Positions 24,024 to 49,793 of a stretch of DNA of 64,000 bases are shown here, piece after piece. A model generated the notes under the pieces. The model saw nothing but the letters and a program-made list of their open reading frames with translations. It was not told the origin of the DNA and searched no databases. The stretch covers positions 2,418,001 through 2,482,000 of the forward strand of contig NZ_SGXJ01000001.1 of the NCBI RefSeq assembly GCF_004216905.1, read 5' to 3'. The translations under genes were made by a program, and so were the position numbers. Numbering within the stretch: the stretch's first letter is position 1; the number at the start of each line of letters is the position of its first letter. The DNA comes from Kribbella sp. VKM Ac-2569. Lineage in GTDB: Bacteria > Actinomycetota > Actinomycetes > Propionibacteriales > Kribbellaceae.

Positions 24024-25016
24024 GTGGGCATAGCAGTCATCGAGAAAGGCCGGCTGGGAATGGCGTTGTTCTGGCGAATCTTCGGACTCAATGCGGTGGT
24101 GCTCGGGGCGGCCACGGCGTTGCTGTTGTGGGCGCCGGTGACAGTGTCGGTCCCGGTGGCCCTGGCTGAGGCTGTTGTCCTGATCGGCGGCCTGGGCGTC
24201 ATGCTCGTAGCCAACGCCGTCCTGCTACACGTCGGCCTGGCACCGCTGGAGCGCGTCACTCGCCGAATGGCCACGGTGGATCTCCTCCGCCCCGGCCAGC
24301 GCGTGTCAGTGACCGGCGACGGCGGTGTGCCGGACCTCGTTCGCGCGTTCAACGACATGTTGGACCGGCTCGAGAACGAGCGGGCCACGAGCAGCGCGCG
24401 GGCGCTGTCGGCCCAAGAGGGCGAGAGGCGCCGCATCGCGCAGGAACTCCACGACGAGGTCGGGCAGAGCATGACCGCGGTGCTGCTCGAGCTGAAGCGC
24501 GCCGCCGACCGCACCCAGGATCCCCTTCTGCGAACCGACCTTCAGCACGCCCAGGAGACCACTCGCGCCAGCCTGGACGACGTACGTCGACTCGCGGGGA
24601 GGCTGCGCCCCGGCGTGCTGGAGGATCTCGGTCTCATCAGCGCCTTGACCACCCTGACGACCGATCTGTCCACCCACACAGGGCTGACGGTGCACCGACA
24701 GTTCGACGCCGACCTGCCCCAGTTGGACCAGCAAACAGAACTGGTGCTCTACCGAGTCGCCCAGGAAAGTCTCACCAATGTCGCCCGGCACGCTGAGGCC
24801 ACAGAGGTCACAGTCCGCTTGTACCGCGCTGGTGACGTCGTGCGACTGCTGATCTGTGACGATGGCCGTGGGATCGGCCTCGCGCATGAGGGCGCCGGGA
24901 TCCGCGGAATGCGCGAGCGTTCCCTGCTGATCGGAGCGACCCTGGACCTCGAAGGCGCTCCTCAGGGCGGCGTTCAAGTGAACCTTTCCGTACCGCTTTC
25001 GCACAGAGGCGGATGA
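24024..25016 (+). CDS. NarL-type sensor histidine kinase
   Basis: A GTG start at 24024 after AAAAGGG gives 330 residues. Two membrane helices (about 16-37 and 45-70) enclose almost no extracellular loop. A HAMP segment (LAPLERVTRRMATVD) follows, then the HisKA_3 motif ERRRIAQELHDEVGQ with phospho-acceptor His143. The HATPase core has the N-box RVAQESLTNVARHA and G-box CDDGRGI. With no sensory ectodomain it probably detects a membrane or cytoplasmic signal. The stop overlaps the response regulator start (ATGA). Confidence 0.93.
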   Translation: MGIAVIEKGRLGMALFWRIFGLNAVVLGAATALLLWAPVTVSVPVALAEAVVLIGGLGVMLVANAVLLHVGLAPLERVTRRMATVDLLRPGQRVSVTGDGGVPDLVRAFNDMLDRLENERATSSARALSAQEGERRRIAQELHDEVGQSMTAVLLELKRAADRTQDPLLRTDLQHAQETTRASLDDVRRLAGRLRPGVLEDLGLISALTTLTTDLSTHTGLTVHRQFDADLPQLDQQTELVLYRVAQESLTNVARHAEATEVTVRLYRAGDVVRLLICDDGRGIGLAHEGAGIRGMRERSLLIGATLDLEGAPQGGVQVNLSVPLSHRGG

Positions 25017-25678
25017 CGATGCCGGCACAGGCGCCTATTCGCATCCTGCTCGCCGACGACCACGCGCTGGTTCGTCGCGGAGTGCGGCTCATCCTGGACA
25101 GCGAACCTGACCTGATGGTCGTCGCTGAGGCCGGCGACGGCGCAGAAGCTGTCGCCGCAGCCCGGCGCCAGCCCGTCGACCTGGCGATTCTCGACGTCGC
25201 GATGCCACGGATGACCGGACTGCAGGCAGCTCGGGAGTTGTCCATTCTCCTTCCTGATCTGCGTATCTTGATGCTGTCGATGTACGACGATGTGCAGTAC
25301 TTCTTCAAAGCACTCAGATCCGGAGCGTCCGGTTACGTCCTGAAATCGGTCGCCGACCGCGACCTGGTGGAGGCCTGCCGGGCCGCGATCCGGGGTGAGC
25401 CCTTCCTCTACCCGGGTGCGGTCACCGCCCTGATTCGCGACTACCTGGACCGCGCTCGGCGTGGTGAGGGTGTGCCTGAGCGGGTTCTCACCGTCCGCGA
25501 GGAAGAGGTCCTCAAGCTCGTCGCGGAGGGTCACTCCTCCAAGGAGATCGCGGAAGAGCTGTTCATCAGCGTCAAAACGGTCGAACGGCACCGGGCGAAC
25601 ATGCTGCACAAGCTCGGCCTACGCGACCGTCTCGACCTCACCCGCTACGCCATCCGCGCCGGCCTGATCGAACCGTGA
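25013..25678 (+). CDS. NarL/FixJ-family response regulator
   Basis: The protein has 221 residues. The receiver domain has the acidic pair DD at 15-16, phospho-acceptor Asp61 (LAILDVAMPRMTG) and Lys in YVLKSV. The LuxR-type HTH lies at about 155-213 (LTVREEEVLKLVAEGHSSKE). It is encoded together with the kinase. The first 50-bp bipartite element begins 34 bases after its stop codon. NarL-type dimers bind inverted repeats, so this protein is the prime candidate for recognising those elements (inference). Confidence 0.93.
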   Translation: MTMPAQAPIRILLADDHALVRRGVRLILDSEPDLMVVAEAGDGAEAVAAARRQPVDLAILDVAMPRMTGLQAARELSILLPDLRILMLSMYDDVQYFFKALRSGASGYVLKSVADRDLVEACRAAIRGEPFLYPGAVTALIRDYLDRARRGEGVPERVLTVREEEVLKLVAEGHSSKEIAEELFISVKTVERHRANMLHKLGLRDRLDLTRYAIRAGLIEP

Positions 25679-25711: not shown

Positions 25712-25761
25712 TTGCCGATGTTCGGCAAGGAAGAGCGGTCGCCTTGGCCGGACTCGGGCAT
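25712..25761 (+). promoter_or_regulatory. 50-bp bipartite element, copy 1 (upstream of third DksA-like gene)
   Basis: The palindrome TTGCCGATGTTCGGCAA occupies 25712-25728. Sixteen bases follow, then the second site TGGCCGGACTCGGGCAT (25745-25761). The element ends 122 bases before the GTG at 25884. It matches the layout of four other copies in the window. Confidence 0.72.
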
Positions 25762-26508: not shown

Positions 26509-28302
26509 ATGACCGGCGTCGCGGAACGGGCGACGATGACAAGAGTTGTCACAGCGGCAGGAGGGCGCCGCCCGCTGGGCCGTGCGGTGGTGCGTGTCCT
26601 CACCACCACAGATCACAAGTTGATCGGGCAGCTGTACCTGATCACGTCGTTCGCGTTCTTCCTGATCGGCGGTCTGATGGCGCTGCTGATGCGTGCCGAG
26701 CTGGCCAAGCCGGGCCTGCAGATCGTGAACGAAGAGGTGTACAACCAGCTGTTCACGATGCACGGCACGATCATGCTGCTGCTGTTCGCGACCCCGCTGT
26801 TCGTCGGCTTCGCCAACGTCATCATGCCGATCCAGATCGGTGCCCCCGACGTCGCGTTCCCACGGCTGAACATGTTCAGCTATTGGCTGTTCCTGTTCGG
26901 CGGGCTCATCGCCTTCAGTGGATTCTTCACTCCCGGCGGCGCAGCGAGCTTCGGCTGGACCGGCTACGCACCGCTGTCCAACGCGGTCCGCTCCCCGGGC
27001 ATCGGCGGCGACCTGTGGATCATGGGTCTGTGGATGGCCGGCCTGGGCACCATCCTCGGCGCCGTCAACTTCATCACCACGATCATCACCCTCCGAGCGC
27101 CCGGGATGACCATGTTCCGGATGCCGATCTTCACCTGGAACACTCTCATCACGTCGATCATGGTGCTAGTGGCGTTCCCGATCCTGGCGGCGGCGCTGCT
27201 GGTGCTGGAGGCGGATCGAACACTCGGGGCCCATGTCTTCGACGCGGCCAACGGCGGGCCGATACTGTGGCAGCACCTGTTCTGGTTCTTCGGCCATCCC
27301 GAGGTGTACATCATCGCGTTGCCGTTCTTCGGCATCGTGACCGAGGTCCTGCCGGTGTTCAGCCGTAAACCCGTCTTCGGCTACATGGGGCTTGTCGGCG
27401 CGACGCTGGCGATCGCCGCGTTGTCGTTGACGGTGTGGGCACATCACATGTTCGCCACTGGCGCGGTGAGTTTGCCGTTCTTCTCGTTCATGTCGTTCTT
27501 GATCGCGGTGCCGACCGGGGTGAAGTTCTTCAACTGGATAGGAACGATCTGGGGCGGCTCAGTGTCGTTCGAGACCCCGATGTTGTGGTCACTCGGGTTC
27601 ATGACGACGTTTTTGTTCGGCGGTCTGACGGGCGTCATCCTGGCCTCGCCGACCCTGGACTATCAGGTCACGGACACCTATTTCGTGGTGGCGCATTTCC
27701 ACTACGTGGTCTTCGGCACCGTGGTGTTCGCGATGTTCGCCGGGTTCTACTTCTGGTGGCCGAAGATGACCGGCCGCATGCTCGACGAGCGGCTGGGCAA
27801 GCTGCACTTCTGGATGCTGTTCATCGGGTTCCACACCACGTTCCTGGTGCAGCACTGGCTCGGTGTCGAGGGCATGCCGCGGCGCTACGCCGACTACAGC
27901 CCGACCGAGGGCTTCACCACGCTGAACCAGATCTCCAGCGTCGGCGCCTTCATCCTCGGCGCCTCGACTTTGCCGTTCCTCTACAACGTCTACAAGACCT
28001 ACCGCCGAGCACCTTTGGTGGGAGTGGACGACCCGTGGGGCTGGGGCCGTTCCCTGGAGTGGGCGACCAACTGCCCTCCACCGCGGCACAACTTCGAGAA
28101 GCTGCCCCGGATCCGATCCGAAAGCCCCGCCTTCGACCGACACCACCCAGAGGTAGCGCTCGCGGAGTACCCGGGCAACCGCGCGCCGGCGGACAATCTG
28201 CTGGATGCCAGCGACGACGAGGGACGCGTGGAGAACCTGGAAGAGAACATGCAACAACAACACCCCGACGGGTCAGGCCGAGACGTTGACTCGCCAGAGT
28301 GA
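26509..28302 (+). CDS. ctaD: Cytochrome c oxidase subunit I, orphan copy
   Basis: The protein has 597 residues with 12 membrane helices. Heme and copper ligands are all present: His85 (MHGTIM), His263 with Tyr267 (FGHPEVY), His312-His313 (AHHMF), and His396/His398 (AHFHYV). The K-pathway Lys is in TGVKFFNW. Family A-type aa3 oxidase subunit I reduces O2 with electrons from cytochrome c. No subunit II, III or IV gene is nearby, so it must replace the housekeeping subunit or use its partners. It follows a DksA-like gene that carries the bipartite element. Confidence 0.93.
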
Positions 28303-30486: not shown

Positions 30487-30779
30487 GGTGTGTTCTCCTG
30501 CGCCGTAGCGGGCGCGGGGAGGCGGGCTGCGACTGATTGGTCCACGACAAACCTCCTGACGCCGGCGGGCGGATCCCGAAGGAGACGGCCCCTGACTCGT
30601 CCATGCACACGAGCGACAGCCCGCCGGGGATCCGTGCCTGGGAGCTCCGCGGCCGTGCTCGTGCAGCTACGACTGTGCCTCGGCGGGGCGATGACAGGTA
30701 TGACCACGATCGGCGAACCTGTGACGGCCTTGATGGCCGACGCCCGGCAACGACGGCCCCTTGGGCAGGGTCGGGTTGG
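30487..30779. other. Intergenic region carrying bipartite element copy 2
   Basis: About 290 bases separate the membrane-protein start from the PucR stop. Short frames on both strands are not supported. The right part holds the regulatory element at 30701-30750. Confidence 0.5.
30701..30750 (-). promoter_or_regulatory. 50-bp bipartite element, copy 2 (upstream of membrane protein-tal)
   Basis: Read on the minus strand the first site is TTGCCGGGCGTCGGCCA (30750-30734). Sixteen bases later comes TTCGCCGATCGTGGTCA (30717-30701). It ends 214 bases before the start codon at 30486. It is strongly similar to copy 3 even in the spacer (GTCACAGG immediately before the second site in both). Confidence 0.72.
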
Positions 30780-35978: not shown

Positions 35979-36923
35979 ATGCGCGTGTTCGTAGCCGGTG
36001 CAACCGGAGTCATCGGCCGCCGGCTGCTGCCCGTACTCACCTCCCAGGGCCATGAGGTGATCGGGTTAGCGCGCTCGTACGGCGCCGCCGTCGAGGTCGA
36101 GATGCTGGGAGCTGTGGTCGCCGAAGCCGATGCGCTGGACTCCGACGCGCTGACCCGGGTCGTCACGGACGCTGCACCCGACGCGGTCATCCACCTGCTC
36201 ACCGCGATCCCGGCCAAGATCAACCCGCGGCGGATGAGCCGCGACTTCGCGCAGACCAACCGGCTCCGCACCGAAGGCACCCGCAACCTGCTGTACGCCG
36301 CACAACAGGCCGGCGCCAAACGCATCATCACCCAAGGCCTGGCCTGCATCTACGAACCGAACACGTGGGTCCCGGCCACCGAGGTCACGCCGTTATGGCG
36401 GGATCCACCCCGGCAGTTCGCCCCGGTGCTCGCCGCCCTGCGGACGCTTGAACAGCGCACCAGGCAGGCAGATGGGCTGGTACTACGGCTAGGGCAGCTC
36501 TACGGCCACGGCACGATCTATGGCAGACACGGATCATTCGTCCGTCAGGTACAGGCCGGGAAGATACCGCTCATCGGCTCCGGCGACGGCACCTTCTCCT
36601 TCACCCACGTCGACGACGCCGCCTCAGCCATCGCCGCGGCGCTGCACAGCCACGTCCGCGGCGCGCTCAACATCGTCGACGACGAGCCGGCGCCAGTCCG
36701 AGAGTGGCTGCCCATCCTGGCCGAACTGCTAGAGGCTCCCCCACCGAAGCACATACCCCTGGCCCTTGCCAGATTGACCGCCGGAGCCTGGGGAGTCGCC
36801 TTCATGACCCAGCTGCGCGGCGCCGACAACACCCTCGCCCGGCGCACCCTCGACTGGGCCCCGCACTACAGCTCATGGCGACAGGGACTCGCAGCGGAAC
36901 TGACCCACGCCGCGCATCCCTGA
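35979..36923 (+). CDS. NAD-dependent epimerase/dehydratase family protein (atypical SDR)
   Basis: The protein has 314 residues. The Rossmann motif GATGVIG at 7-13 and DAVIHLLTAIP (about 67-77) define an extended/atypical SDR. The usual catalytic YxxxK is not evident: the equivalent segment reads GLACIYEPNTW with no Lys four residues on, so it may bind NAD(P) without classic epimerase activity. It follows aceE by 39 bases with a GGAGGAA ribosome binding site. The role is unknown, possibly redox sensing or quinone/flavin-linked. Confidence 0.85.
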   Translation: MRVFVAGATGVIGRRLLPVLTSQGHEVIGLARSYGAAVEVEMLGAVVAEADALDSDALTRVVTDAAPDAVIHLLTAIPAKINPRRMSRDFAQTNRLRTEGTRNLLYAAQQAGAKRIITQGLACIYEPNTWVPATEVTPLWRDPPRQFAPVLAALRTLEQRTRQADGLVLRLGQLYGHGTIYGRHGSFVRQVQAGKIPLIGSGDGTFSFTHVDDAASAIAAALHSHVRGALNIVDDEPAPVREWLPILAELLEAPPPKHIPLALARLTAGAWGVAFMTQLRGADNTLARRTLDWAPHYSSWRQGLAAELTHAAHP

Positions 36924-37012: not shown

Positions 37013-37062
37013 TTGCCGATCATCGGCAACCACAAAGGGTCCAACTCAGCCGACGAATGGCG
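37013..37062 (+). promoter_or_regulatory. 50-bp bipartite element, copy 4 (upstream of doxX)
   Basis: First site TTGCCGATCATCGGCAA (37013-37029) is a perfect palindrome. After 16 bases comes TCAGCCGACGAATGGCG (37046-37062). It ends 62 bases before the DoxX start. Confidence 0.74.
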
Positions 37063-40282: not shown

Positions 40283-41317
40283 TCAGTCGCCGGCGGCGTC
40301 GGTCTTCGACCCGTTGTCGCGAGACCCCCCGGCATCGCGCTCGGCCCGCGCGGCGAGGAGCCTTACGCTCGCCAGCGAAGCGATCACGGTGACGGTCAGG
40401 ACCCCGGCGATGACGCTCAACGAGACGCCTGTGCTGATTTCGGGGACATCGACGGGCTGCGCGTCGTTGATGAACGGGAGGTTGTTCTCGTGCAGCGCGT
40501 GCAGGATCAGTTTGCCCCCGATGAAAGCCAGGATCGCGGCGAGGCCGTAGGACAGGTAGATGAGACGGTCCAGGAGACCGTCGATGAGGAAATACAGCTG
40601 CCGTAGCCCCAGCAGGGAGAACGCGGTGGCGGTGAAAACGATGAAGACACTCTGGGTGAGGCCGAAGATCGCCGGGATGGAGTCCAGCGCGAACAGGACG
40701 TCGGTGCCGCCGATGGCCACCATGACCAGCAGCATCGGAGTCATCACCCGACGGCCCTGGTCGATGGTGAACAGTCGGTCGCGGTCGTAGGTTTCAGAGG
40801 TCCTCAGGAACCTCTTGGCGACGCGGACGATGACGTTGTTCGCCGATCGGCCGGTCGTGGTCCCGGGTTTGAGCATTTGGCCGGCGGTGACGAGCAAAGT
40901 CAGCCCGAAGATGTAGAACACGAAGGCATAGGAGTTGACGAGCGCAGCGCCGAGGAAGATGAAGACGGTGCGCGCGAGGAGAGAGAACACGATGCCGAAC
41001 AGCAACGCCTTCTGCTGGTCGGCGCGAGGCACTTTGAAGCTGGCCATGATGATGAGGAACACGAAGAGGTTGTCGACCGACAACGCCTTCTCCGTCAGGT
41101 AGCTGGCGAAGTATTCGCTGCCCAGCGTCCCGTCGCCCAGGAGCCAGACGCCGACGCCGAACAAGACGGCGATGCCCACGTAGATGGCTGACCAGATTCC
41201 AGCCTCGCGGAGCGTCGGAGTATGTGCGGTGCGCACATGGAAGAAGAAGTCGAACAGCAGCAGGGCAAGGATCCCGAGGATCGTCAGGGCCCAGACGAGT
41301 GAGGGAACATGCATCAA
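40283..41317 (-). CDS. TerC-family integral membrane protein
   Basis: The protein has 344 residues with about nine helices. Conserved acidic membrane motifs DNLFVFLIIMASF and GGTDVLFALDSIPAIFGLTQ are the metal-binding signatures of TerC/Alx proteins, now linked to manganese export and metallation of secreted enzymes. Its start overlaps the V-ATPase B stop by four bases, so it is the last gene of the V-ATPase operon. A C-terminal extension of about 40 residues is charged. The coupling to a proton/sodium pump is unusual. Confidence 0.92.
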   Translation of the reverse strand: MMHVPSLVWALTILGILALLLFDFFFHVRTAHTPTLREAGIWSAIYVGIAVLFGVGVWLLGDGTLGSEYFASYLTEKALSVDNLFVFLIIMASFKVPRADQQKALLFGIVFSLLARTVFIFLGAALVNSYAFVFYIFGLTLLVTAGQMLKPGTTTGRSANNVIVRVAKRFLRTSETYDRDRLFTIDQGRRVMTPMLLVMVAIGGTDVLFALDSIPAIFGLTQSVFIVFTATAFSLLGLRQLYFLIDGLLDRLIYLSYGLAAILAFIGGKLILHALHENNLPFINDAQPVDVPEISTGVSLSVIAGVLTVTVIASLASVRLLAARAERDAGGSRDNGSKTDAAGD

Positions 41318-42732
41318 GCATCGGTCGCTGTCACGGACGCCTCGTGGTGGTAATGCGCAAGGTGTTCAGCGCTGACGCGTTTCAGCTCGGCTGCCGGGAA
41401 GGGTGCCAGGAGTTGCCAGCCCACCTCGAGGGTGTCGGTCAGAGTACGGCGGGCTGGTCCTTGGCCGAGATAGGTGCGTTCGAAGGCTGCGGCGAAGGCC
41501 AGATAGCGCCGGTCCTCTGTGGGTAGTCCGCTCTCGCCGACGATCGACATCAGCCGTCGGACCTCACGGCCGCGGGCGTAGCAGGCGTACAGCTGGTCGG
41601 CGAGGCCGCGGTGATCGTCTCGGGTCTTGCCGACGCCGATGCCTGCGTTCATCAGGCGCGACAGTGACGGCAGTACGTCGATCGGTGGCTGGATGCCTTG
41701 CCGGTCGAGGTCACGCGACAGCACGATCTGGCCTTCGGTGATGTAGCCGGTGAGGTCCGGGATCGGATGGGTGATGTCGTCGTCGGGCATGGTGAGGATC
41801 ATCAGTTGGGTCAGTGATCCGGTGCCGCCGCGGACTCGGCCGGCCCGTTCGTACAGGGAGGCCAGGTCGGTGTACATGTAGCCCGGGTACCCCCGGCGCC
41901 CCGGCATCTCCTCCCGCGCGGCGGAGATCTCGCGCAGCGCTTCGCAGTAAGCGGTCATGTCGGTCATCACGACCAGGACGTGCCGGTGCTGTTCGAACGC
42001 CAGGTATTCGGCCATGGTGAGCGCGACCCGCGGTGTCAGCAGCCGTTCGATCGTGGGATCGTCGGCCAGGTTCAACAGGAGGACGCTGCGCGCGGCAGCC
42101 CCACCGGTGAGGAACTCCGTGCGGAAGAACTCCGCCTCCCGACGAGTAACGCCCATGGCAGCGAAGATGACCACGACCTCGGCATCGTCGCCGGGCACCC
42201 GGGCCTGCGCGGCAATCCGGGCGGCAAGGCTGTTCGCAGGAAGCCCGGCGCCGGAGAAGATCGGCAACTTCTGGCCCCGGACCAAGGTGATGAGTCCGTC
42301 GATCGCCGACACACCGGTTTCGATGAACTGGTCGGGGTGTGCGCGGGTGATCGGGTTGAGCGGCAGTCCGTTGACGTGGCGGTAGTCGTCCGGGACGGGT
42401 TGCGGGCCGCCGTCGCGTGGCCTGCCGGCTCCGTCGAGGACGCGGCCGAAATAGTCGTTGCCGACACCGGTCCTGGCGGCGCGGCCGCGGGTGAGTACGG
42501 AGGTTTGACGGCGTCCGATTCCGACGGTTCCACCGAAGACCTGGACGATCGCCGTTGACCCGTCGAGCTCGAGCACCTGGCCTTCCCGGACCGGGCCGTC
42601 GCCGGTTTCGACCTCGACCAGTTCGCCGTACCCGACGCCGTCCATCCCGTCCACGACGATGAGGGGCCCGGCCACCCGGGTCACCGTGCGATGCCCGACC
42701 GTGAAGGGGGATTGGGCGTCGGTGGTGGTCAC
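41314..42732 (-). CDS. atpB: V/A-type ATP synthase subunit B
   Basis: The GTG start at 42732 overlaps the A-subunit stop (GTGA) and gives 472 residues. The protein carries the non-catalytic nucleotide fold typical of subunit B: the P-loop is replaced by IFSGAGLPANSLAARIA, and EFFRTEFLTGGAA, YLAFEQHRHVLVVMTDMTAY and REEMPGRRGYPGYMYTDLAS are classic B signatures. It alternates with A in the A3B3 hexamer. Length is normal for the family. The symbol follows V-type nomenclature (also ntpB). Confidence 0.94.
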   Translation of the reverse strand: MTTTDAQSPFTVGHRTVTRVAGPLIVVDGMDGVGYGELVEVETGDGPVREGQVLELDGSTAIVQVFGGTVGIGRRQTSVLTRGRAARTGVGNDYFGRVLDGAGRPRDGGPQPVPDDYRHVNGLPLNPITRAHPDQFIETGVSAIDGLITLVRGQKLPIFSGAGLPANSLAARIAAQARVPGDDAEVVVIFAAMGVTRREAEFFRTEFLTGGAAARSVLLLNLADDPTIERLLTPRVALTMAEYLAFEQHRHVLVVMTDMTAYCEALREISAAREEMPGRRGYPGYMYTDLASLYERAGRVRGGTGSLTQLMILTMPDDDITHPIPDLTGYITEGQIVLSRDLDRQGIQPPIDVLPSLSRLMNAGIGVGKTRDDHRGLADQLYACYARGREVRRLMSIVGESGLPTEDRRYLAFAAAFERTYLGQGPARRTLTDTLEVGWQLLAPFPAAELKRVSAEHLAHYHHEASVTATDA

Positions 42733-44528
42733 AGCGAGCTCATTTCTTCGGCGATCCGCTGGATGAGGCGGCTCGCGGATTCGTGGATGTTGTCGGCGGG
42801 CCAGCGACGCATCCGGCCGAGGTCGGCCAGCACACTCGCTGCCGTGATGTCGGTAATGGCGACGCCCTGCTGGAGCGCTGACCTCATCGCGGCGCCGGCC
42901 TCGTGGACAACGCGCAGCATCGCCAGCAGTCGCTGCGGTGGACAGGACGCGTCGAGGTCGTCGAACGAGGACTGTTGAAGCAGGTCTTCTCGCAAGGCTT
43001 GCCCGATGCGCAGGGTGATCCGTTGTTCGGCAGCCAGCGCTTCGACGCCGAGCAGCGACACCACCTCCTGTAAGACGCCCTCGTCTTGCAACGAGGCGGC
43101 CGCCCAGCGACGCAGTGGCGACCAGTCGGCGCTGATCTCCCTGTCGAACCATGCGTCGAGGCCGTACTGCGAGAAGCTGCGCAGCCAGTTCACCGCAGGG
43201 AAATGACGTTGCCGGGACAGTGCGGTGTCGAGCGCCCAGAAGCAGCCCGCGAGCCGCAGGCTGTTCTGGGTGATGGGCTCGGAGAAGTCACCGCCGGCCG
43301 GTGAAACCGCGCCGACGACCGTCACCGAGCCGGTGCGTTCCGGCGTGCCGAGGCACTGGACCGCGCCGGCCCGTTCGTAGAAGCCGGCCAGCCGGGTCGC
43401 CAGGTAGGCGGGGTAGCCGTCCTCGGCGGGCATCTCCTCGAGCCGGCTCGACACCTCACGCAGCGCCTCCCCCCAGCGGCTGGTCGAGTCGGCCATCATG
43501 GCGACGTCGTAGCCCTGGTCCCGGTAGTACTCCGCGATCGTGATCCCGCTGTAGATACTGGCTTCCCGGGCCGCGACCGGCATGTTGGAGGTGTTGGCGA
43601 TCAACACGGTGCGCTCCATCAGGGGCGCGCCCGTGCGCGGATCGGTCAGCTGAGGGAACTCCTCGAGCACCTCGGTCAGTTCGTTGCCGCGTTCGCCGCA
43701 GCCGACGTAGATAACGATGTCTGCGGTCGAGAACTTGGCCAGTGCCTGTTCCAGCACGGTTTTGCCGGTCCCGAAGCCGCCCGGGATGATGGCGCTGCCG
43801 CCGCGGGCGACCGGGAAGAGCAGGTCGAGGACCCGTTGGCCGGTGATCAGCGGTACGGTCAGCGGCAGCCGGTCCGCGACCGGGCGGGCGCGGCGCAACG
43901 GCCAGCGGCGCAGCATCGCGATCGGATGCCCGTCGATGTCGACGACGGGGTCGAGGACGGTGGCTGGGCCGGGATGGATCGCGCTGATGATGCCGGCCGC
44001 ACCGGCGGGCACCAGGATCCGGTGTTCGATGGCGTGTCCCTCGGGAACCGATCCGAGCAGGTCACCGGGCCCGACGCGGTCACCGACCTCCACGGCGGGC
44101 CGGAAATCCCAGTGGCGGTTGCGGTCGAGCCGGTGGGGGTCCGCGCCTCTAGCGATGTACAGGTTGCCGTCCGTGCTCAGATTCTCCAGCGGTCGCTGGG
44201 TGCCGTCGAGGATGCCGCCGAGGAGTCCGGGGCCGAGTTCGGCGTACAGCGGTTCACCGGTCGCCTCGACCGGTTCGCCGACCTGGAGTCCCGTGGTGTC
44301 TTCGAAGACCTGCATCACCACCAGGTCGCCGTCGAGCTTGATGACCTCGCCCAGCAGTCTCTCGGTCCCGACCCGCACCACGTCGAACAGGCGGGTATGG
44401 GGCAGATCGGTCGCGCTGATCACCGGGCCGGAGATCCTGACGACTCGGCCGGTATCGCTGGTCACCGTCCGGGCCAGTCCGGAGCGGCCCAGTGGTGCTG
44501 GCTCGGTGTGTGGTCTGGTCGTGGTCAT
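42729..44528 (-). CDS. atpA: V/A-type ATP synthase catalytic subunit A
   Basis: The start ATG 44528 overlaps the F-subunit stop (ATGA). The protein has 599 residues. Catalytic Walker A is GGFGTGKTVLEQAL (family consensus GPFGSGKT, here with Gly for Pro and Thr for Ser). VGCGERGNELTEVLEEFPQL contains the catalytic Glu, and MMADSTSRWGEALREVSSRL is the A-subunit signature. The V-type 90-residue insertion near residues 110-200 is present, which separates it from F1-beta. It hydrolyses or makes ATP in the rotary complex. Confidence 0.95.
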   Translation of the reverse strand: MTTTRPHTEPAPLGRSGLARTVTSDTGRVVRISGPVISATDLPHTRLFDVVRVGTERLLGEVIKLDGDLVVMQVFEDTTGLQVGEPVEATGEPLYAELGPGLLGGILDGTQRPLENLSTDGNLYIARGADPHRLDRNRHWDFRPAVEVGDRVGPGDLLGSVPEGHAIEHRILVPAGAAGIISAIHPGPATVLDPVVDIDGHPIAMLRRWPLRRARPVADRLPLTVPLITGQRVLDLLFPVARGGSAIIPGGFGTGKTVLEQALAKFSTADIVIYVGCGERGNELTEVLEEFPQLTDPRTGAPLMERTVLIANTSNMPVAAREASIYSGITIAEYYRDQGYDVAMMADSTSRWGEALREVSSRLEEMPAEDGYPAYLATRLAGFYERAGAVQCLGTPERTGSVTVVGAVSPAGGDFSEPITQNSLRLAGCFWALDTALSRQRHFPAVNWLRSFSQYGLDAWFDREISADWSPLRRWAAASLQDEGVLQEVVSLLGVEALAAEQRITLRIGQALREDLLQQSSFDDLDASCPPQRLLAMLRVVHEAGAAMRSALQQGVAITDITAASVLADLGRMRRWPADNIHESASRLIQRIAEEMSSL

Positions 44529-44866
44529 TGCCGGCCTCCGCTGGGGGTGAAGGTGATCTGGTAGCCGATCGCGCGGGCGAGCAGGTCGCGCAGCGCCGCG
44601 TCCTTGGCGGCGGAGACCTCGCCATCCTCGTCGGGGAGGCTCAGGATGAGCGGGGAGGCCTGTTTGGTCCAGGTCGCGCGGACCGACGGTCCGACGAGCG
44701 ACCACAGTGCCCCGTGTACGGCGATCACCGCGGCTCGGCCGTCGGCGATCTCCTGGGCGACCGCGGCGATGGTCTGGTCGGCGCCGGAGGCGGTGATGGT
44801 TCGGGCGCCGCCGAGACGGAACCCCGTGGCGGTCGCGGGGGTGGCGATGACCAGCGCGTCGGTCAT
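44525..44866 (-). CDS. atpF: V/A-type ATP synthase subunit F
   Basis: An ATG at 44866 preceded by GGAAGGGAC is preferred over one at 44902 that lacks a good ribosome binding site. The 113-residue product starts MTDALVIATPATATGFRLGG, matching the subunit F pattern (a regulatory Rossmann-like domain with GFRLGG). It then has IADGRAAVIAVHGALWSLVG and a C-terminal helix. Subunit F sits on the central stalk with D and restrains rotation. Its position between C and A follows the usual V-type order. Confidence 0.85.
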   Translation of the reverse strand: MTDALVIATPATATGFRLGGARTITASGADQTIAAVAQEIADGRAAVIAVHGALWSLVGPSVRATWTKQASPLILSLPDEDGEVSAAKDAALRDLLARAIGYQITFTPSGGRQ

Positions 44867-44901
44867 GGGCTTGTCCCTTCCGGGCGGCGCCGTCGTGTTC
44901 A

Positions 44902-45903
44902 TCAGACGAGCAGGTCTCGGACGTCATGAGCGTGAGCCGTGCCGGCGAGAAGGAGCCGGATGGTGCGCGCCTCGCATTCGACGGCCAGCACGTAGCCCAC
45001 GGGCACGTCGGCTCCGAGGGGGTCGCCGCGTCGCAGGCCGCGCACGGCTTGGCGCCACAGGTCCACATCCAGGTCCCACTCGAGCGCGATGAGGTCCCCG
45101 TCGTGGAGGTGTCGTTCAAGGGGTTCTCGCCAGCCAGGGCGAGTGGCCGCTGCGGGTTGCGGATCCCCGCGCCGGGCGGCCAGCAGCGCAGGCACGGGGA
45201 TCAGGCCTGCGGGCAGGACACGTGGTGTCTGGAGTGCCGGATCGCCCAGTACGGCGAGCAGGTTGGCCCGATCGCATTCGGCCTGGATCAGCTCCAGGAT
45301 CGGGCGAGCCGCCCGGCCGACCCATTCCAGCCGGTCGGTCCATCCGTCGATCGCGGCTGCCGCGATGGTGGTCTCAAGCTCATCGGGGTCGCCGGTCAGT
45401 TCGTAGCGTTCCCAGGCCGGCGGAAGAGCCCGGGCGGTCAGCGGGTCAGGCAGCCGGTGTGCCGCCAGCCGGATGACTGCCGTGGTGCCGTCGGGTGCTG
45501 CGGCGATGTCGGCGGCGGAGCGCTGGTCGAGCGCACCGACACCCATCACCGCGGCAAGCCGGTCAGCGGCGGGCTGCCCGGTGCACGCCCCCCGCAGCAG
45601 CGCAAGGGTGTCGTGCAGGTCGTGCCGGGCCAGCAGCACCCCGACCGCAGTGCCGGCAATACCGCCGTACAGTCCCCGGACTCCGCGCAGTTGGTCGCGC
45701 AGCCGGCGCGCGACAGCGTCGAGGAGCGGGTTACCTGCCTGGTCGCGGCTCAGGTAGGGGCGGTAGATCGACGTGGCCAGCCGTTCGGCGGCTGCGTCGC
45801 GGGACAGGCCGGCGAGCTGGTCGTAGTCGAACCGGGCGAGCAGGCCGGGTAGCCGTGCCCGCAGCCGGGTGTTGCCGGCGATGAAGTCGGCTCGGGCTGT
45901 CAT
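44902..45903 (-). CDS. atpC: V/A-type ATP synthase subunit C (V-type d homologue)
   Basis: The ATG 45903 (MTARADFIAGNTRLRARLPG) overlaps the E-subunit stop by four bases. The 333-residue protein is helical throughout with repeats such as LPGLLARFDYDQLAGLSRDA and LARHDLHDTLALLRGACTG, the pattern of the funnel-shaped C subunit that caps the rotor ring. Sequence identity in this subunit is always low; assignment rests on size, helical content and operon position. It links the central stalk to the membrane rotor. Confidence 0.82.
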   Translation of the reverse strand: MTARADFIAGNTRLRARLPGLLARFDYDQLAGLSRDAAAERLATSIYRPYLSRDQAGNPLLDAVARRLRDQLRGVRGLYGGIAGTAVGVLLARHDLHDTLALLRGACTGQPAADRLAAVMGVGALDQRSAADIAAAPDGTTAVIRLAAHRLPDPLTARALPPAWERYELTGDPDELETTIAAAAIDGWTDRLEWVGRAARPILELIQAECDRANLLAVLGDPALQTPRVLPAGLIPVPALLAARRGDPQPAAATRPGWREPLERHLHDGDLIALEWDLDVDLWRQAVRGLRRGDPLGADVPVGYVLAVECEARTIRLLLAGTAHAHDVRDLLV

Positions 45904-46466
45904 GAGTCTTGCTCCCAGGAGCGGCTCAGCCCGACGCGGACCTCCGGCCACAGGTTCGCAAGCCTGGTGGGAAAGGTGTTGTCGATGTAGCGGCCCCGGT
46001 CGTCCTCGGCGATGGCGCCGCCGGTGCCGAGGTCGGCGACCAGCCTCACCGACGGGTCTGGGCGTAGCGTCGCGGCGTCGGCCGGGTGGACGCGGAGCGT
46101 GGTGGCGTGAGGCAGCGCGGCGAGTATTTCGTCCACGCAGGCGACCGCGGCCTTCACGCCGACCTGGCTTCCCGGGAGTGTGAGCAACTGCGCCCGGACC
46201 TTGTCGAGGACCTCCTCCAGCGCGTCGTCCCGGGCGGTCCGGACCGCCCGGCGCGCACCCGAGCGCGCTGCGGTCAAAAGGCTCTGTGCCTCCTGCCGGG
46301 CTGCGGCCTCGGCTGCCGTCACGGCGTCCGTCTGGAGCCTGGCTCCGCGTTCGCGGGCATCGGCGACAATCTGGGCTGCCTGCCGGCGTCGGTTCTGTTG
46401 GGCCTTCTCGTGCTCTGCTGCTCCTTCTTCCTCCAGTGCGGTGAGCAGATCGCGCAGCGCCATCAT
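45900..46466 (-). CDS. atpE: V/A-type ATP synthase subunit E (peripheral stalk)
   Basis: The protein has 188 residues. The N-terminal half is a long Ala/Gln/Arg-rich coiled coil (EEEGAAEHEKAQQNRRRQAA). The C-terminal globular half has VRAQLLTLPGSQ and LVADLGTGGAIAEDDRGRYI followed by NTFPTRL, the typical subunit E ending. With subunit H it forms the stator stalks. The start overlaps the K stop by four bases. Confidence 0.86.
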   Translation of the reverse strand: MMALRDLLTALEEEGAAEHEKAQQNRRRQAAQIVADARERGARLQTDAVTAAEAAARQEAQSLLTAARSGARRAVRTARDDALEEVLDKVRAQLLTLPGSQVGVKAAVACVDEILAALPHATTLRVHPADAATLRPDPSVRLVADLGTGGAIAEDDRGRYIDNTFPTRLANLWPEVRVGLSRSWEQDS

Positions 46467-46687
46467 TTGCCGCCGAGCAGCAAGATGATCATCGCCGAGA
46501 CCGCGAACCCGAGGATGACCAGCGTTTCCGGGATGGCGACGAGCAGGATCGCGCGGCCGGTCAGTTCAGGTTTCTCCGCCACAGCGCCCATGGCTGCGGC
46601 TCCGATGCGGGCCTGGGCGTAGCCGGTGGCCAGTGCGGACAGTCCGACGGCGAGGCCGGCTGCTAGGGCGATCAGTCCGAGTTCCAT
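46463..46687 (-). CDS. atpK: V/A-type ATP synthase proteolipid subunit K (rotor ring)
   Basis: An ATG at 46687 gives a 74-residue two-helix hairpin: MELGLIALAAGLAVGLSALA..., then AILLVAIPETLVILGFAVSA. The ion-carrying Glu is in IPETL of helix 2. At 8 kDa it is a single hairpin, unlike the 16-kDa doubled K subunit of many V-type pumps, so the ring should have one carboxylate per hairpin. A Thr follows the Glu, a position used in some sodium-binding rings, but other sodium ligands are not clear. Proton or sodium specificity is left open. Confidence 0.9.
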   Translation of the reverse strand: MELGLIALAAGLAVGLSALATGYAQARIGAAAMGAVAEKPELTGRAILLVAIPETLVILGFAVSAMIILLLGGK

Positions 46688-46700
46688 GATGTTTGTCCTT

Positions 46701-48638
46701 TCAGACCGGTGACCCGGCCGGGACCGGCTCGGGTGTGGCGCGGACGTGGGATGGGAGGCCAGTGGCGCTGTCCGGCTCGGAGCCGGTGGCAACAGCACCG
46801 CCGAGCGGCGCGAAGAGTCGGCCACCGCCCTCGTAGAACTGTCCGAAGAACTCCACATAGTGAAGGCGAAGCGCCTGGATCGTCGGGCTGAACGCCGCGA
46901 GGGCGAGATTCAGCGCGTGAAACAAGGTGGCCACCAGGAGTCCGAGCAGCAGCGGTCCCCGGGCGCCGAGCTGGTTGGCGACCTCAGCCAGGTAGGTCGA
47001 GGCGAGGCCGACCGCCGCCAGCCGCAGGTAGGACAAGACGTTGCCGAGGGCACCGAGCAGATCGAGCGGGCCCAGCAGCAGCCCGAGCGCGCCCTGGGAC
47101 ACACAGGCCACCACGACACCGACAACGAGAGCGGCGACCGCAGGGGTCAGCACCCCCGCGGGGAATCCCGCGGCGACGACACCGGCCAGGCCGAAAAGCC
47201 CGGCCAGCACCAGCAGGGTTCCCGCCTTCGAGGCAATCTGTCGGCGGTGGTTTCCGCGGGCCGCCGTCCATACGCCCAGCAGCAATCCCAAGACGACATG
47301 GACCATGCCGATGGCCAGGGCGAACAGCAGCAATGGTTGGAGCGCTGTCGGGCCACCCCGGTAGAACCACAGCGCCGGCATGCCGATGCTGTGGCCCAGG
47401 CTGCCGAGCGCTTCGCCGTACAGGAAGCCGAAGAGAATCGTCCAGGCTCCGCCCAAAGCCATCACCCGGCCGACCTGGCCGACTGTGCTGTTCTTGGGCC
47501 AGTGCGATCTGAACCACCACGCGCCAGCCAGCAGGAGGCCGCCGTAGACGACGTCGCCGACCATCACGCCGAAGAAGATCGGCAGCACCAGTGCCGTCAG
47601 ACCCGTGGGGTCCAGGTCGCCGCGCGCCGGCCAGGACAACAGCCCAACCAACTGCTGGAACGGCTGCCAGCCGGGCCGGTTGCGCAGCAGGACCGGCTTG
47701 TCCTCGACCGATTCGCTGGTGTCGAGGCGCTCGACGGCGACGGCCGGGCCGAGGCGGTCGGCCAGTGCGCGCTCGACCTGTTCGGTCTGCTTGGTCGGGA
47801 CCCAGAGCCTCAGGATGAACGTACGCGAGGACAGGTCCGCCTGTGCGGCAGCGACAGCTCGTTCGGCTCGGGCCTGCAGCACGGCGATGGTGGCGTGCAG
47901 CGACCCCGCGACGGGGATGACCGTCGCGGCCAGTTCGGCCTGGACGCGGTTGCGTTCGCCGGGCAGCTTGGCGAGCCGTTCGCGCATCGCCTCGACGGTC
48001 GCACGCAGCGACTTGCCGGCGTAGGCCGCGGGGACCCCGACCTCGACGATGCGTTCGGTGCCGAGCAGGGCATTGACGTCGGGCAGGTCGGCGCGGCGAA
48101 GAACGAGCAGGCAGCCGACCGGTCCGCCGGGCGTCGCCGTCGAGGTGACCATCAGGTGCCCGCGGCCGAGCAGTTCGGCGAGTTGCCGGTTCAGCTCGGG
48201 GACGATTCGCAGGTCCGGGTCGTCGAGGACCAGCGCGATGCTGGCCAGGCCCAGGTTCGCCAGTTGCCGATCGTTGAGCCGGCCCAGTTCGGGCACGAGC
48301 GGCTGTAGCGCGTCGAGGGCGTCGATGGACCGGGGCAGTGCCTCGGCCTCGCCGCGTAGTTCCTCGTCTTCGGCCAGCAGCTTTGCTACCTGGGGTTCGA
48401 GGTGGTCGAGGGTGGTCCGCAGGGCGGTGTCGCTCAGCACGGTGCCGGTCGCGGGCTGGCCGGCGAGCGGCATCATGGCGTCGGTGCGGGCGATGAGGTC
48501 CGCCAGGTCGGGCGGGGTCTCGCCGGGATCGACGACGGTCACGACTTCGGCCAGCCGCAGTTCCTGCAGGGCTGTCAGGGCGTCGTCCAGGCGCGGTCTG
48601 AGTCCGGCGACCTCGAGTTGGGTGAGTGGGACCATCAT
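46701..48638 (-). CDS. atpI: V/A-type ATP synthase subunit I (a-subunit homologue)
   Basis: The protein has 645 residues. The N-terminal 330 residues are soluble with two coiled-coil arms (for example LRATVEAMRERLAKLPGERN). The C-terminal half has about eight membrane helices, including LVLPIFFGVMVGDVVYGGLL and the helix GALGNVLSYLRLAAVGLAST. The latter holds the conserved channel Arg in SYLRL. It forms the stator ion half-channels next to the K ring. It overlaps the H-subunit stop by four bases. Confidence 0.93.
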   Translation of the reverse strand: MMVPLTQLEVAGLRPRLDDALTALQELRLAEVVTVVDPGETPPDLADLIARTDAMMPLAGQPATGTVLSDTALRTTLDHLEPQVAKLLAEDEELRGEAEALPRSIDALDALQPLVPELGRLNDRQLANLGLASIALVLDDPDLRIVPELNRQLAELLGRGHLMVTSTATPGGPVGCLLVLRRADLPDVNALLGTERIVEVGVPAAYAGKSLRATVEAMRERLAKLPGERNRVQAELAATVIPVAGSLHATIAVLQARAERAVAAAQADLSSRTFILRLWVPTKQTEQVERALADRLGPAVAVERLDTSESVEDKPVLLRNRPGWQPFQQLVGLLSWPARGDLDPTGLTALVLPIFFGVMVGDVVYGGLLLAGAWWFRSHWPKNSTVGQVGRVMALGGAWTILFGFLYGEALGSLGHSIGMPALWFYRGGPTALQPLLLFALAIGMVHVVLGLLLGVWTAARGNHRRQIASKAGTLLVLAGLFGLAGVVAAGFPAGVLTPAVAALVVGVVVACVSQGALGLLLGPLDLLGALGNVLSYLRLAAVGLASTYLAEVANQLGARGPLLLGLLVATLFHALNLALAAFSPTIQALRLHYVEFFGQFYEGGGRLFAPLGGAVATGSEPDSATGLPSHVRATPEPVPAGSPV

Positions 48639-49015
48639 GGTCGGCTTACCTCGTCCTGTGATGACCGTGTCTGTTGCGGCAGCACCGCGGCGACGACAGT
48701 TGCGATGTCGTGGTCGCGGCGCCGGGCGGCGATCGCAGTCAGATCGGCGGCGTGGCGGTTGCCGGCCTGGGTCAACCGGGCGGCCTCGGCGCGGGCGGCG
48801 GACAGGATCGCGGTTGTCCGTTGCCGCGCCACCTCCGCCGCCTGCGCTTCGGCCTCGGCGATGAGGTGATCCGCCTGCACTTGAGCTAGTGCCACCTCAT
48901 CGCCGGCTTGGTTCGCCGCCGCCAGTCGGGCGGCGATCGAGGTCTCGAGCTCGCGTACCAACTCGTGCGGTGTCGCCTGTGCGACCGTATCGCTGTCGTC
49001 GTGCGCGCGGCTCAT
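48635..49015 (-). CDS. V/A-type ATP synthase subunit H/G-like (peripheral stalk)
   Basis: The protein has 126 residues and is almost entirely Ala/Gln/Glu/Arg coiled coil from residue 20 to 110 (ELETSIAARLAAANQAGDEV, ADHLIAEAEAQAAEVARQRT). That matches the short stator subunit H (also called G or NtpF) that pairs with E. Sequence similarity is uninformative in such proteins, so the call rests on the coiled coil and operon position. Start and stop overlap both neighbours by four bases. Confidence 0.75.
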   Translation of the reverse strand: MSRAHDDSDTVAQATPHELVRELETSIAARLAAANQAGDEVALAQVQADHLIAEAEAQAAEVARQRTTAILSAARAEAARLTQAGNRHAADLTAIAARRRDHDIATVVAAVLPQQTRSSQDEVSRP

Positions 49016-49680
49016 GCTGCGCTCCGACTGCGGTCACGCCCGTCGCTGGTCGCATCGCGGGAGGCCCGGCGGGCCCGGGCGCGTCTGAGCCGGGCGTGCT
49101 CCTCGCGTTCGCGCTCGTCCAGCGTGAGCGCGATCCGGCGCGCCTCGTCGTGCAACTGAGGGAGCACGATGTTGTCCAAGGCATTGACCTGCGTGGTGGT
49201 CCGGGCGATCTCCGTGGCCAGCCGTCGTACGCTGAGCTCGACCGCGCACAGGTCCAGGAGCCACTCGAGTTGCTCCTCGTAGGCCAGCGCGACGGTGTCG
49301 AGGTGGGCCGAGGCTAGGGCGGGTGCCCAGCCGCGGGTGGCTGTGTTGCGGCGGACGGGGTCATGGCTCAGATCGAAGACGTGGACCCCTGCCACGGTCC
49401 GAGACCGCAGCTCCGCGCCGATCCCTGTGGCGGCGGTCAGCGCGCCCGATGCGAGTGCCTCGGGGCCGCACACGGCGGTGGCCTCGTCAAGGCGTTGCCG
49501 GGCTTGAACGGCGAGGGTCCGCAGCCGTTCCAATCCGTCCAGCAGTTCGGTCTGGTGGTGCCGGAACTCCCGCACCAGCGCGGTTCGTTTGTCTTTGAGC
49601 AGATCGCGGCCTTGAGCGACGAAGACCGCCCGCCGCCGGCGGTCCAGCAGTTCACTTCGGGTAGCAACAAGGGATTGCAT
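49012..49680 (-). CDS. atpD: V/A-type ATP synthase subunit D (central stalk)
   Basis: The protein has 222 residues. The N-terminal helix carries LDRRRRAVFVAQGRDLLKDK RTALV, in which LLKDKR is the conserved signature of subunit D. The C-terminal region LATEIARTTTQVNALDNIVL ending in PQLHDEARRI is the other diagnostic block (family RTTRRVNALE). It is the rotating axle in the A3B3 hexamer. It is the first gene of the operon here, whereas D usually comes last. The 50-bp regulatory element lies 63 bases upstream. Confidence 0.93.
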   Translation of the reverse strand: MQSLVATRSELLDRRRRAVFVAQGRDLLKDKRTALVREFRHHQTELLDGLERLRTLAVQARQRLDEATAVCGPEALASGALTAATGIGAELRSRTVAGVHVFDLSHDPVRRNTATRGWAPALASAHLDTVALAYEEQLEWLLDLCAVELSVRRLATEIARTTTQVNALDNIVLPQLHDEARRIALTLDEREREEHARLRRARARRASRDATSDGRDRSRSAA

Positions 49681-49743
49681 GGCACACTCCCGGATGCGTG
49701 ATCGGGTACCTCTGAGACTGCCGTTGCGGCGCTTCGCCGGGTA

Positions 49744-49793
49744 TTGGCACCTTCGGCGAAGGTCGCATCTCGTTGATTGCCGGGAACCGGCAA
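49744..49793 (-). promoter_or_regulatory. 50-bp bipartite element, copy 5 (V-ATPase operon)
   Basis: Read on the minus strand, TTGCCGGTTCCCGGCAA (49793-49777) is followed after 16 bases by TTCGCCGAAGGTGCCAA (49760-49744). It ends 63 bases before the D-subunit start codon at 49680, almost the same distance as for doxX (62) and USP (70). Confidence 0.75.

Follow-up and report, generated by a model that had tools for sequence, protein, structure and literature searches.

Among described rotary ATPases, the V/A-type enzyme of Thermus thermophilus has the same set of subunits as the locus reported here, and in the Thermus operon the gene for subunit D comes last. To our knowledge, why some bacteria keep a V/A-type enzyme beside a full F-type enzyme is largely an open question. 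A V/A-type ATPase operon was analyzed here in a stretch of 64,000 nucleotides from Kribbella sp. VKM Ac-2569 (assembly GCF_004216905.1, contig NZ_SGXJ01000001.1, positions 2,418,001 to 2,482,000), which is referred to below as the window. Unlike that of Thermus, the window operon begins with D, coexists with a full F-type operon, and carries a gene for a TerC/Alx-family membrane protein. The lineage of D-first V/A enzymes to which it belongs is tentatively read as a conditional ATP-driven rotary pump tied to Mn2+ and pH stress, a proposal held with a little less than even confidence, in which the direction of pumping, the ion, and the metal link are inferred from sequence comparisons.

Ten open reading frames were found on the minus strand between 40283 and 49680 in the order D-H-I-K-E-C-F-A-B-TerC, in agreement with a preliminary description of this DNA. 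Its statement that all nine ATPase subunits are present held for A, B, C, D, F, I, and K, which exceeded their Pfam cut-offs; E scored just below its cut-off and is weakly assigned to its family by profile, and H was placed by position. Neither Pfam nor NCBIfam gave a family match for H, and it is assigned to this subunit because an alignable small protein sits between D and I in related operons. Several of the subunits B, D, C, F, I, and K were under the NCBIfam equivalog cut-offs though over those of Pfam. In A, the P-loop, the extra barrel-sandwich domain, and the VA-type C-terminal domain were all matched (PF00006, PF16886, PF22919), and features expected of a working enzyme were recognized by eye, namely the P-loop of A, the SYLRL stretch of I with its arginine, and, within the PET of K, a glutamate. 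Subunit K aligned with V-type ATP synthase subunit K of PDB entries 8yy1, 6qum, and 5gar, Q and PET included; these chains, which matched K best, and the best PDB match of subunit I (5y5x_N) are presumably from Thermus. The 4-base overlaps described for most junctions were seen at six of eight (D-H, H-I, K-E, E-C, F-A, and A-B), with a gap of 13 bases at I-K and one of 35 bases at C-F, the latter becoming a 1-base overlap if an upstream ATG is the start. The TerC gene overlaps the stop of B, as described, by 1 base (TGATG). All ten genes gave dN/dS values of 0 to 0.35 against three other Kribbella, indicating purifying selection.

The genome (8.43 Mb, 13 contigs) was searched for an F-type operon, and a complete one was located on contig 5, where the genes for a, c, b, delta, alpha, gamma, beta, and epsilon were all eight over their Pfam cut-offs; the V/A enzyme is therefore an additional, second one, as the preliminary description had suggested. 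Four strong PF00006 matches were obtained, two of them in the V/A operon, plus a weaker fifth that was taken as Rho. The closest named relative of subunit A was that of Kribbella soli (98%). V-type enzymes are rare in the class: with the own genome counted each time, subunit D (PF01813) turned up in 16 of the 394 class genomes, in 10 of the 147 relatives, every one a member of the same genus, and in 93 of the 396 phylum genomes. Within the genus sample of 38 genomes (G000 to G037), the D-first operon occurred in seven (the own genome, G011, G016, G017, G019, G022, and G033), 28 were without subunit D, and three (G012, G025, and G030; loci L135, L136, and L134) carried a different V-type operon of the order I-K-F-E-A-B-D. 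Outside Kribbella, the order D-H-I-K-E-C-F-A-B was found in a Propionibacteriales metagenome-assembled genome (MAG; on two contigs), Jiangella muralis, two Nocardioides, Janibacter terrae, and five genomes from one family of the phylum, called Rubrobacter here because over 9 kb one of them matches plasmid 1 of Rubrobacter radiotolerans at 100% identity. In these operons F was undetected in L070, and K was undetected in L082 (N. ferulae), where I is split.

A gene for a divalent-cation transporter recurs behind B in this group. TerC or a P-type ATPase lay within 300 bases downstream of B and in the same direction in 13 of the 17 D-first operons, the slot being held by TerC in six of seven Kribbella and the MAG, and by the P-type ATPase in all four genomes of the Jiangella/Nocardioides/Janibacter branch and two of five Rubrobacter. 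None of the 58 other V/A loci (of 63) that had at least 300 bases of room downstream carried TerC or such a P-type ATPase there, as judged by a P-type model that was made from the D-first neighbours and that other P-type classes could escape; weak P-type matches 1.4 and 5.1 kb downstream in two class loci speak against strict exclusiveness. By its domains and best models the downstream P-type ATPase is assigned to class P2A. PMR1-type pumps transport Ca2+ and Mn2+. Taken with the manganese efflux activity reported for relatives of the window protein among TerC/Alx proteins (available part of PMC10550928), this would make Mn2+ common to both transporter types; a title in the reference list of that paper also names a Mn-sensing riboswitch that controls a Mn2+/Ca2+ ATPase in Streptococcus. 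A second TerC gene was present about 1.4 kb upstream of D in the Nocardioides and Janibacter islands (three of the four genomes of the branch). The window TerC was 40% identical to the Nocardioides/Janibacter TerC, 70% to a resident Kribbella TerC, and 74% to the V-linked TerC of the MAG; a single inherited gene in Nocardioides/Janibacter and Kribbella was ruled out at 40% identity, and the TerC associations therefore arose apart in two lineages. Orthology of the Rubrobacter P2A with that of Jiangella/Janibacter was unsupported (about 42% identity, no closer than other P2A genes). The P-type ATPase of a Pseudonocardia plasmid was 61% identical to the Jiangella/Janibacter P2A, and from the subunit B tree it is likely that the branch holding Pseudonocardia, Jiangella, and Kribbella had P2A first, the slot later going to TerC in Kribbella.

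In the Jiangella/Nocardioides/Janibacter branch, D is preceded by a promoter-like stretch (TTGACA...TAATCT in Janibacter) and then by a leader carrying GAAGGGGAGTA...ATCGTCA...AAGACCTTC (TCGACA in N. ferulae). In Jiangella the leader RNA lies at L083 4626-4730. When cut out, the leader folded into a closing helix, an internal loop, a second helix, and two hairpins; a longer stretch favoured a rival downstream hairpin that uses the 3' side of the closing helix, and rival hairpins of such type are frequent in riboswitches. The same three motifs (GGGGAGUA, UCGUCA, and AGACC) are present in the E. coli alx leader, the first spacer being 17 bases long there and in Jiangella and 16 in Janibacter and N. 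ferulae. A two-motif pattern matched 1 of 197 class genomes, at a place judged unrelated by sequence. With a third motif, chosen after comparison of the Jiangella leader with E. coli alx, the pattern matched 60 of 384 Actinomycetes genomes and its reversed control 3. Thirty of these loci were read: by hidden Markov model TerC was next in 21, in one of them in pieces, and in the other nine neither TerC nor a P2A gene was next. An alignment was built from 29 of the 30 loci without any V-ATPase leader, one row being another copy from a Jiangella genome; its structure comprised 25 pairs, 21 of them with changes on both sides. In 39 loci (751,454 bases), the covariance model made from this alignment, R1, gave 61.9 to 67.2 bits for the leaders of all four V-ATPase operons, 47.6 for that of E. 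coli alx, and 15.6 for the next best match; the N. ferulae leader (L082) was found even though it is one base off the three-motif pattern.

Whole-genome searches with R1, limited to 150 scored candidates in each genome, gave at least 6, 6, 6, and 8 matches in the four members of the branch, of which at least 4, 4, 2, and 4 were on the contig of the V-ATPase island; these island-contig matches lay within about 20 kb of the operon leader, with one just before TerC in three of the four genomes. The Rfam model RF00080 at gathering score did not match the leaders of the branch, nor, on two of them, at E up to 5, and gave no match to the E. coli alx leader either. At E up to 1 in 12 genomes it gave nine weak matches, and since six of these fell on R1 sites elsewhere in these genomes, on the same strand, they support the yybP-ykoY class label. 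By covariance model, then, the leader is classified as an RNA of the yybP-ykoY (Mn2+ riboswitch) class, and according to the available part of PMC9603457 the E. coli mntP switch of this kind is activated jointly by Mn2+ and alkaline pH. In the own Kribbella genome, R1-class RNAs were found before two resident TerC genes and not before the V-ATPase. As a separate observation, the actinobacterial form of the alx/yybP-ykoY RNA mostly precedes TerC, with RF00080 below its gathering threshold or silent where looked. Several alx-type RNAs also occur within one mobile actinobacterial island, one copy before the V-ATPase operon, one before TerC, and others before further genes (one DUF2784); copies were located at L081 2080-2192, 4393-4496, and 16429-16537, L250 10183-10277 (minus strand), and L083 16270-16364.

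For the trees of subunits A and B, repeat copies of a given Kribbella or Jiangella locus were set aside, as were four loci that were incomplete or odd and rows shorter than 450 (A) or 380 (B) residues; three further, long-branch loci were left out of the B tree. The D-first operons formed one clade in both, with 16 rows in the A tree and 18 in the B tree, the latter including the MAG, whose row was too short for the A tree, and the Pseudonocardia plasmid; the support was 100 in each by the Shimodaira-Hasegawa-like approximate likelihood ratio test (SH-aLRT). Beside the clade stood a Hydrogenedentes MAG and one copy each from G622 and G663, two members of the phylum that may be Coriobacteriia; D is at the end in all three. 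The A tree also placed G541 there, and the deep forks were weak (SH-aLRT 70 in the A tree). A distant clade held the V-type enzymes of the three other Kribbella. The D-first arrangement pointed out in the preliminary description is thus real and is not the order throughout actinobacteria; it is not peculiar to the window operon, as it marks one clade. The simplest account would be a single move of D to the front in that clade's ancestor. The phylogeny that had been proposed for finding the donor lineage resolved the D-first clade and supported no recent archaeal donor: in a tblastn search with subunit A the best non-actinobacterial matches were archaeal (52-55% identity), but both trees placed the clade beside the G622, G663, and Hydrogenedentes MAG copies.

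The D-first lineage is patchy and mobile and has spread among actinobacteria by horizontal transfer. Janibacter terrae and Nocardioides flavus, though of different families, share 99.5% identity over 18,006 bases that include the operon, and in Rubrobacter radiotolerans the operon is on a 191-kb plasmid. Between TerC and the V-ATPase operon, the Janibacter island and its counterpart in N. flavus both have a gene resembling a ribosome hibernation factor (NF052287, below cut-off; L081 3246-4340). The 58-kb plasmid of Pseudonocardia broussonetiae (L209) carries only F-A-B and the P-type ATPase, with an integrase gene near F, and its operon is an incomplete remnant; elsewhere on that plasmid there is an alx-type RNA (L209 7586-7700). 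In Kribbella G007 the island is present without the ATPase block, and next after Band-7 come the MarR and DUF488 genes, which in the window flank the far side of the block. This empty site, read from genes called here, makes the window block (an ABC gene, TerC, the ATPase, GH15, and DUF6789) a variable cassette inside a shared island.

That island contains genes for Usp, aceE, COX1, a DksA/TraR protein, and a two-component pair. The stress promoter of the preliminary description was not recovered: the 15 best 20-position matches to a DosR-type box in the window scored 13 to 15, none of them upstream of D and two inside the D gene, and a palindrome was found upstream of D instead. The exact palindrome occurs at five places in the own genome, three of them in the window, and together with a second block it is kept in all seven Kribbella operons, farther upstream of which the sequence diverges. 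In a count by hand over the seven D-first Kribbella genomes, 20 of 27 exact sites lay within 28 kb of D; the own-genome count is post hoc, the motif having been found in the window, and the better test is given by the other six genomes (17 of 22). No exact site was found in 12 of the 38 Kribbella genomes, and G007, without the ATPase, keeps two, before COX1 and before the DoxX-like gene. Near copies at 30734 and 32077 stand before the Usp-aceE genes and gene 29734. A factor controlling the island probably binds at the palindrome, a candidate being the LuxR-type response regulator encoded at 25013-25678, and the genes that bear the palindrome possibly form an unnamed regulon. The COX1 gene (terminal oxidase subunit I) lies at 26587-28302, and no other oxidase subunit was seen among the neighbouring genes scanned.

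Table 1. Positions in the window of the operon genes, of the palindrome sites, and of the second conserved block.
Feature	Position	Strand	Basis
Palindrome TTGCCGGGAACCGGCAA (read on + strand), upstream of D	49777..49793		exact match; TTGCCG-N5-CGGCAA
Second conserved block ACCTTCGCCGAAGGTGCCAATACCCG (read on minus strand), between palindrome and D	49738..49763		alignment of 7 Kribbella upstream regions
Same palindrome, upstream of DoxX-like gene	37013..37029		exact match
Same palindrome, upstream of DksA/TraR-type zinc-finger gene with COX1 gene behind	25712..25728		exact match
Subunit D (central stalk), first gene of operon	49012..49680	-	PF01813 123.8 bits; TIGR00309 over cut-off
Putative subunit H (peripheral stalk), 126 aa	48635..49015	-	place; alignable proteins at same place in related operons
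Subunit I (membrane stator)	46701..48638	-	PF01496 62.5 bits; best PDB match a V-type ATP synthase subunit I
Subunit K (c ring), 74 aa, one hairpin, ...YAQARIG...AIPETLVILGF	46463..46687	-	PF00137 64.5 bits
Subunit E (peripheral stalk), weak assignment	45900..46466	-	PF01991 23.3 bits vs cut-off 24.2; NF002629 36.4 bits vs cut-off 184
Subunit C	44902..45903	-	PF01992 66.4 bits
Subunit F	44525..44866	-	PF01990 37.9 bits
Subunit A (catalytic), P-loop GGFGTGKT	42729..44528	-	PF00006, PF16886, PF22919 over cut-off; NF003220 777.3 bits
Subunit B, GTG start	41314..42732	-	PF00006, PF22919; NF003235 693.8 bits
TerC/Alx-family membrane protein	40283..41314	-	PF03741; TIGR03718 343.5 bits, cut-off 246.4

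In the proposed mechanism, ATP hydrolysis by A3B3 would most likely turn D-F and the K ring and export H+ through I. The enzyme is probably H+-coupled, since a Thermus-like K ring makes H+ likelier than Na+, with reversal to synthesis possible. When respiration or the F-type enzyme is impaired by Mn2+ overload, an alkaline shift, or dormancy-like stress, the V/A pump would keep up the proton gradient, which in turn would support or balance the efflux of a divalent cation, Mn2+ or another, through TerC in Kribbella and P2A in others; by returning protons exchanged by these exporters, the pump would let TerC/Alx or P2A go on exporting or delivering Mn2+. In Kribbella the operon lies in the stress island and is probably controlled by the palindrome-binding factor. 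Excess Mn2+ in E. coli is described in the available part of PMC9603457 as harming Fe-S and heme proteins and alkalizing the cytoplasm; such harm could impair respiration, so a separate ATP-driven pump would make sense. In a narrower version, which is doubtful, a module dedicated to Mn2+/Ca2+ export would join the D-first V/A-ATPase, as its proton-pumping half, to a co-transcribed PMR1-like P2A or TerC/Alx, and in one branch an alx-type Mn2+/alkaline-pH riboswitch would turn it on. Such a module would parallel, in bacteria, the V-ATPase and PMR1 that are paired in the yeast Golgi.

Several results weigh against the conditional-pump reading. No R1 match was found at the operon start in the window, where the best score was 13.2 bits at 36333-36430, nor near the other Kribbella V/A operons among the candidates scored, and the regulatory Mn2+ link therefore does not reach the window copy. 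TerC/Alx genes are common, each Kribbella genome giving 2 to 6 matches, and a single association could therefore have arisen by chance. The K. pratensis operon is without TerC, three of five Rubrobacter operons have neither TerC nor P2A within 300 bases after B, and a P-type ATPase stands upstream of the distant V-type operon in two of G012, G025, and G030. The top model of the P2A proteins was PMR1-type (TIGR01522) but below the equivalog cut-off (764.2 vs 798.3 bits in Janibacter), and the Janibacter protein passed the PMCA-type cut-off (TIGR01517) by 0.6 bits (507.6 vs 507.05). With its single hairpin the c ring resembles that of the Thermus-type enzyme, which can work in either direction, and ATP synthesis may thus be what the window enzyme does.

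This last point leads to a backup ATP synthase or dormancy ATPase that would supply ATP when the proton-motive force is low, or maintain the membrane potential, in hypoxia or starvation, with TerC merely sharing the operon. The Thermus-like single-hairpin c ring would suit such a role, as would the island setting with Usp, aceE, COX1, DksA/TraR, and the two-component pair, the palindrome common to some island genes and the operon, and, next to the operon of Rubrobacter radiotolerans, the genes for Usp and GAF. It would leave unexplained why cation transporters recur downstream and why the sister clade has alx-type leaders, and this explanation is considered rather unlikely. A Na+-translocating V-ATPase like that of Enterococcus hirae is improbable. 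The Q of helix 1 and the PET of helix 2 would fit Na+ ligands, but the same residues appear in the aligned subunit K of the Thermus-type enzyme, which is H+-coupled. Na+ riboswitches do precede V-type ATPases in enterococci and clostridia (available part of PMC9337991), yet Rfam at gathering score returned one tRNA only from the window and four Rubrobacter loci and nothing from seven other related loci. We also give little credence to a mobile passenger of little use to its host, kept by chance after transfer: the patchy occurrence (7 of 38 Kribbella), the near-identical copies in two families, and the plasmid copies, one of them incomplete, fit such a passenger, but purifying selection on every subunit and TerC and the conserved upstream block do not.

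Read as a conditional pump tied to Mn2+ and pH stress, the D-first clade offers a testable answer to why a second rotary enzyme is kept: it travels with exporters of the Mn2+/Ca2+ families, has an RNA of the Mn2+-riboswitch class in three genera, and in Kribbella sits in a stress island. If this is true, rotary ATPases become part of the bacterial manganese/pH stress response. Among the matches listed in searches of open-licence full texts, no V/A-ATPase was tied to TerC or an alx-type riboswitch, texts on Kribbella, Rubrobacter, or TerC with V-type ATPase held nothing on the window operon, and the Na+ riboswitch was the only one tied to V-type ATPases. The V/A operons of G622 and G663, of which one copy each branches next to the D-first clade, run H-I-K-E-C-F-A-B-D and are like that of the window apart from D, which is at the end, and they differ also in having no TerC or P2A within 300 bases downstream. 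The V-type atp operons of Thaumarchaeota, in the available part of PMC6863869, likewise involve whole-operon transfer of a variant rotary ATPase, habitat stress, and proposed H+ pumping; unlike the window operon they are archaeal, the cultivated species described there have either an A-type or a V-type enzyme, and the link is to acid and pressure and not to a metal exporter. In the V-type ATPases of enterococci and clostridia (available part of PMC9337991), a metal-ion riboswitch precedes the genes as in the Jiangella/Nocardioides/Janibacter branch; it is of the Na+ class there and of the alx/yybP-ykoY class in that branch, and the window has neither. With the yybP-ykoY Mn2+ riboswitches that accompany Alx, MntP, or MeeY (available parts of PMC9603457 and PMC10550928), the D-first operons share the TerC/Alx family and, in the Jiangella/Nocardioides/Janibacter branch, the leader motifs. 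They differ in that the leaders of the branch stay below the RF00080 gathering threshold and precede a rotary ATPase operon, to which, if the reading is true, alx-type riboswitch control would extend.

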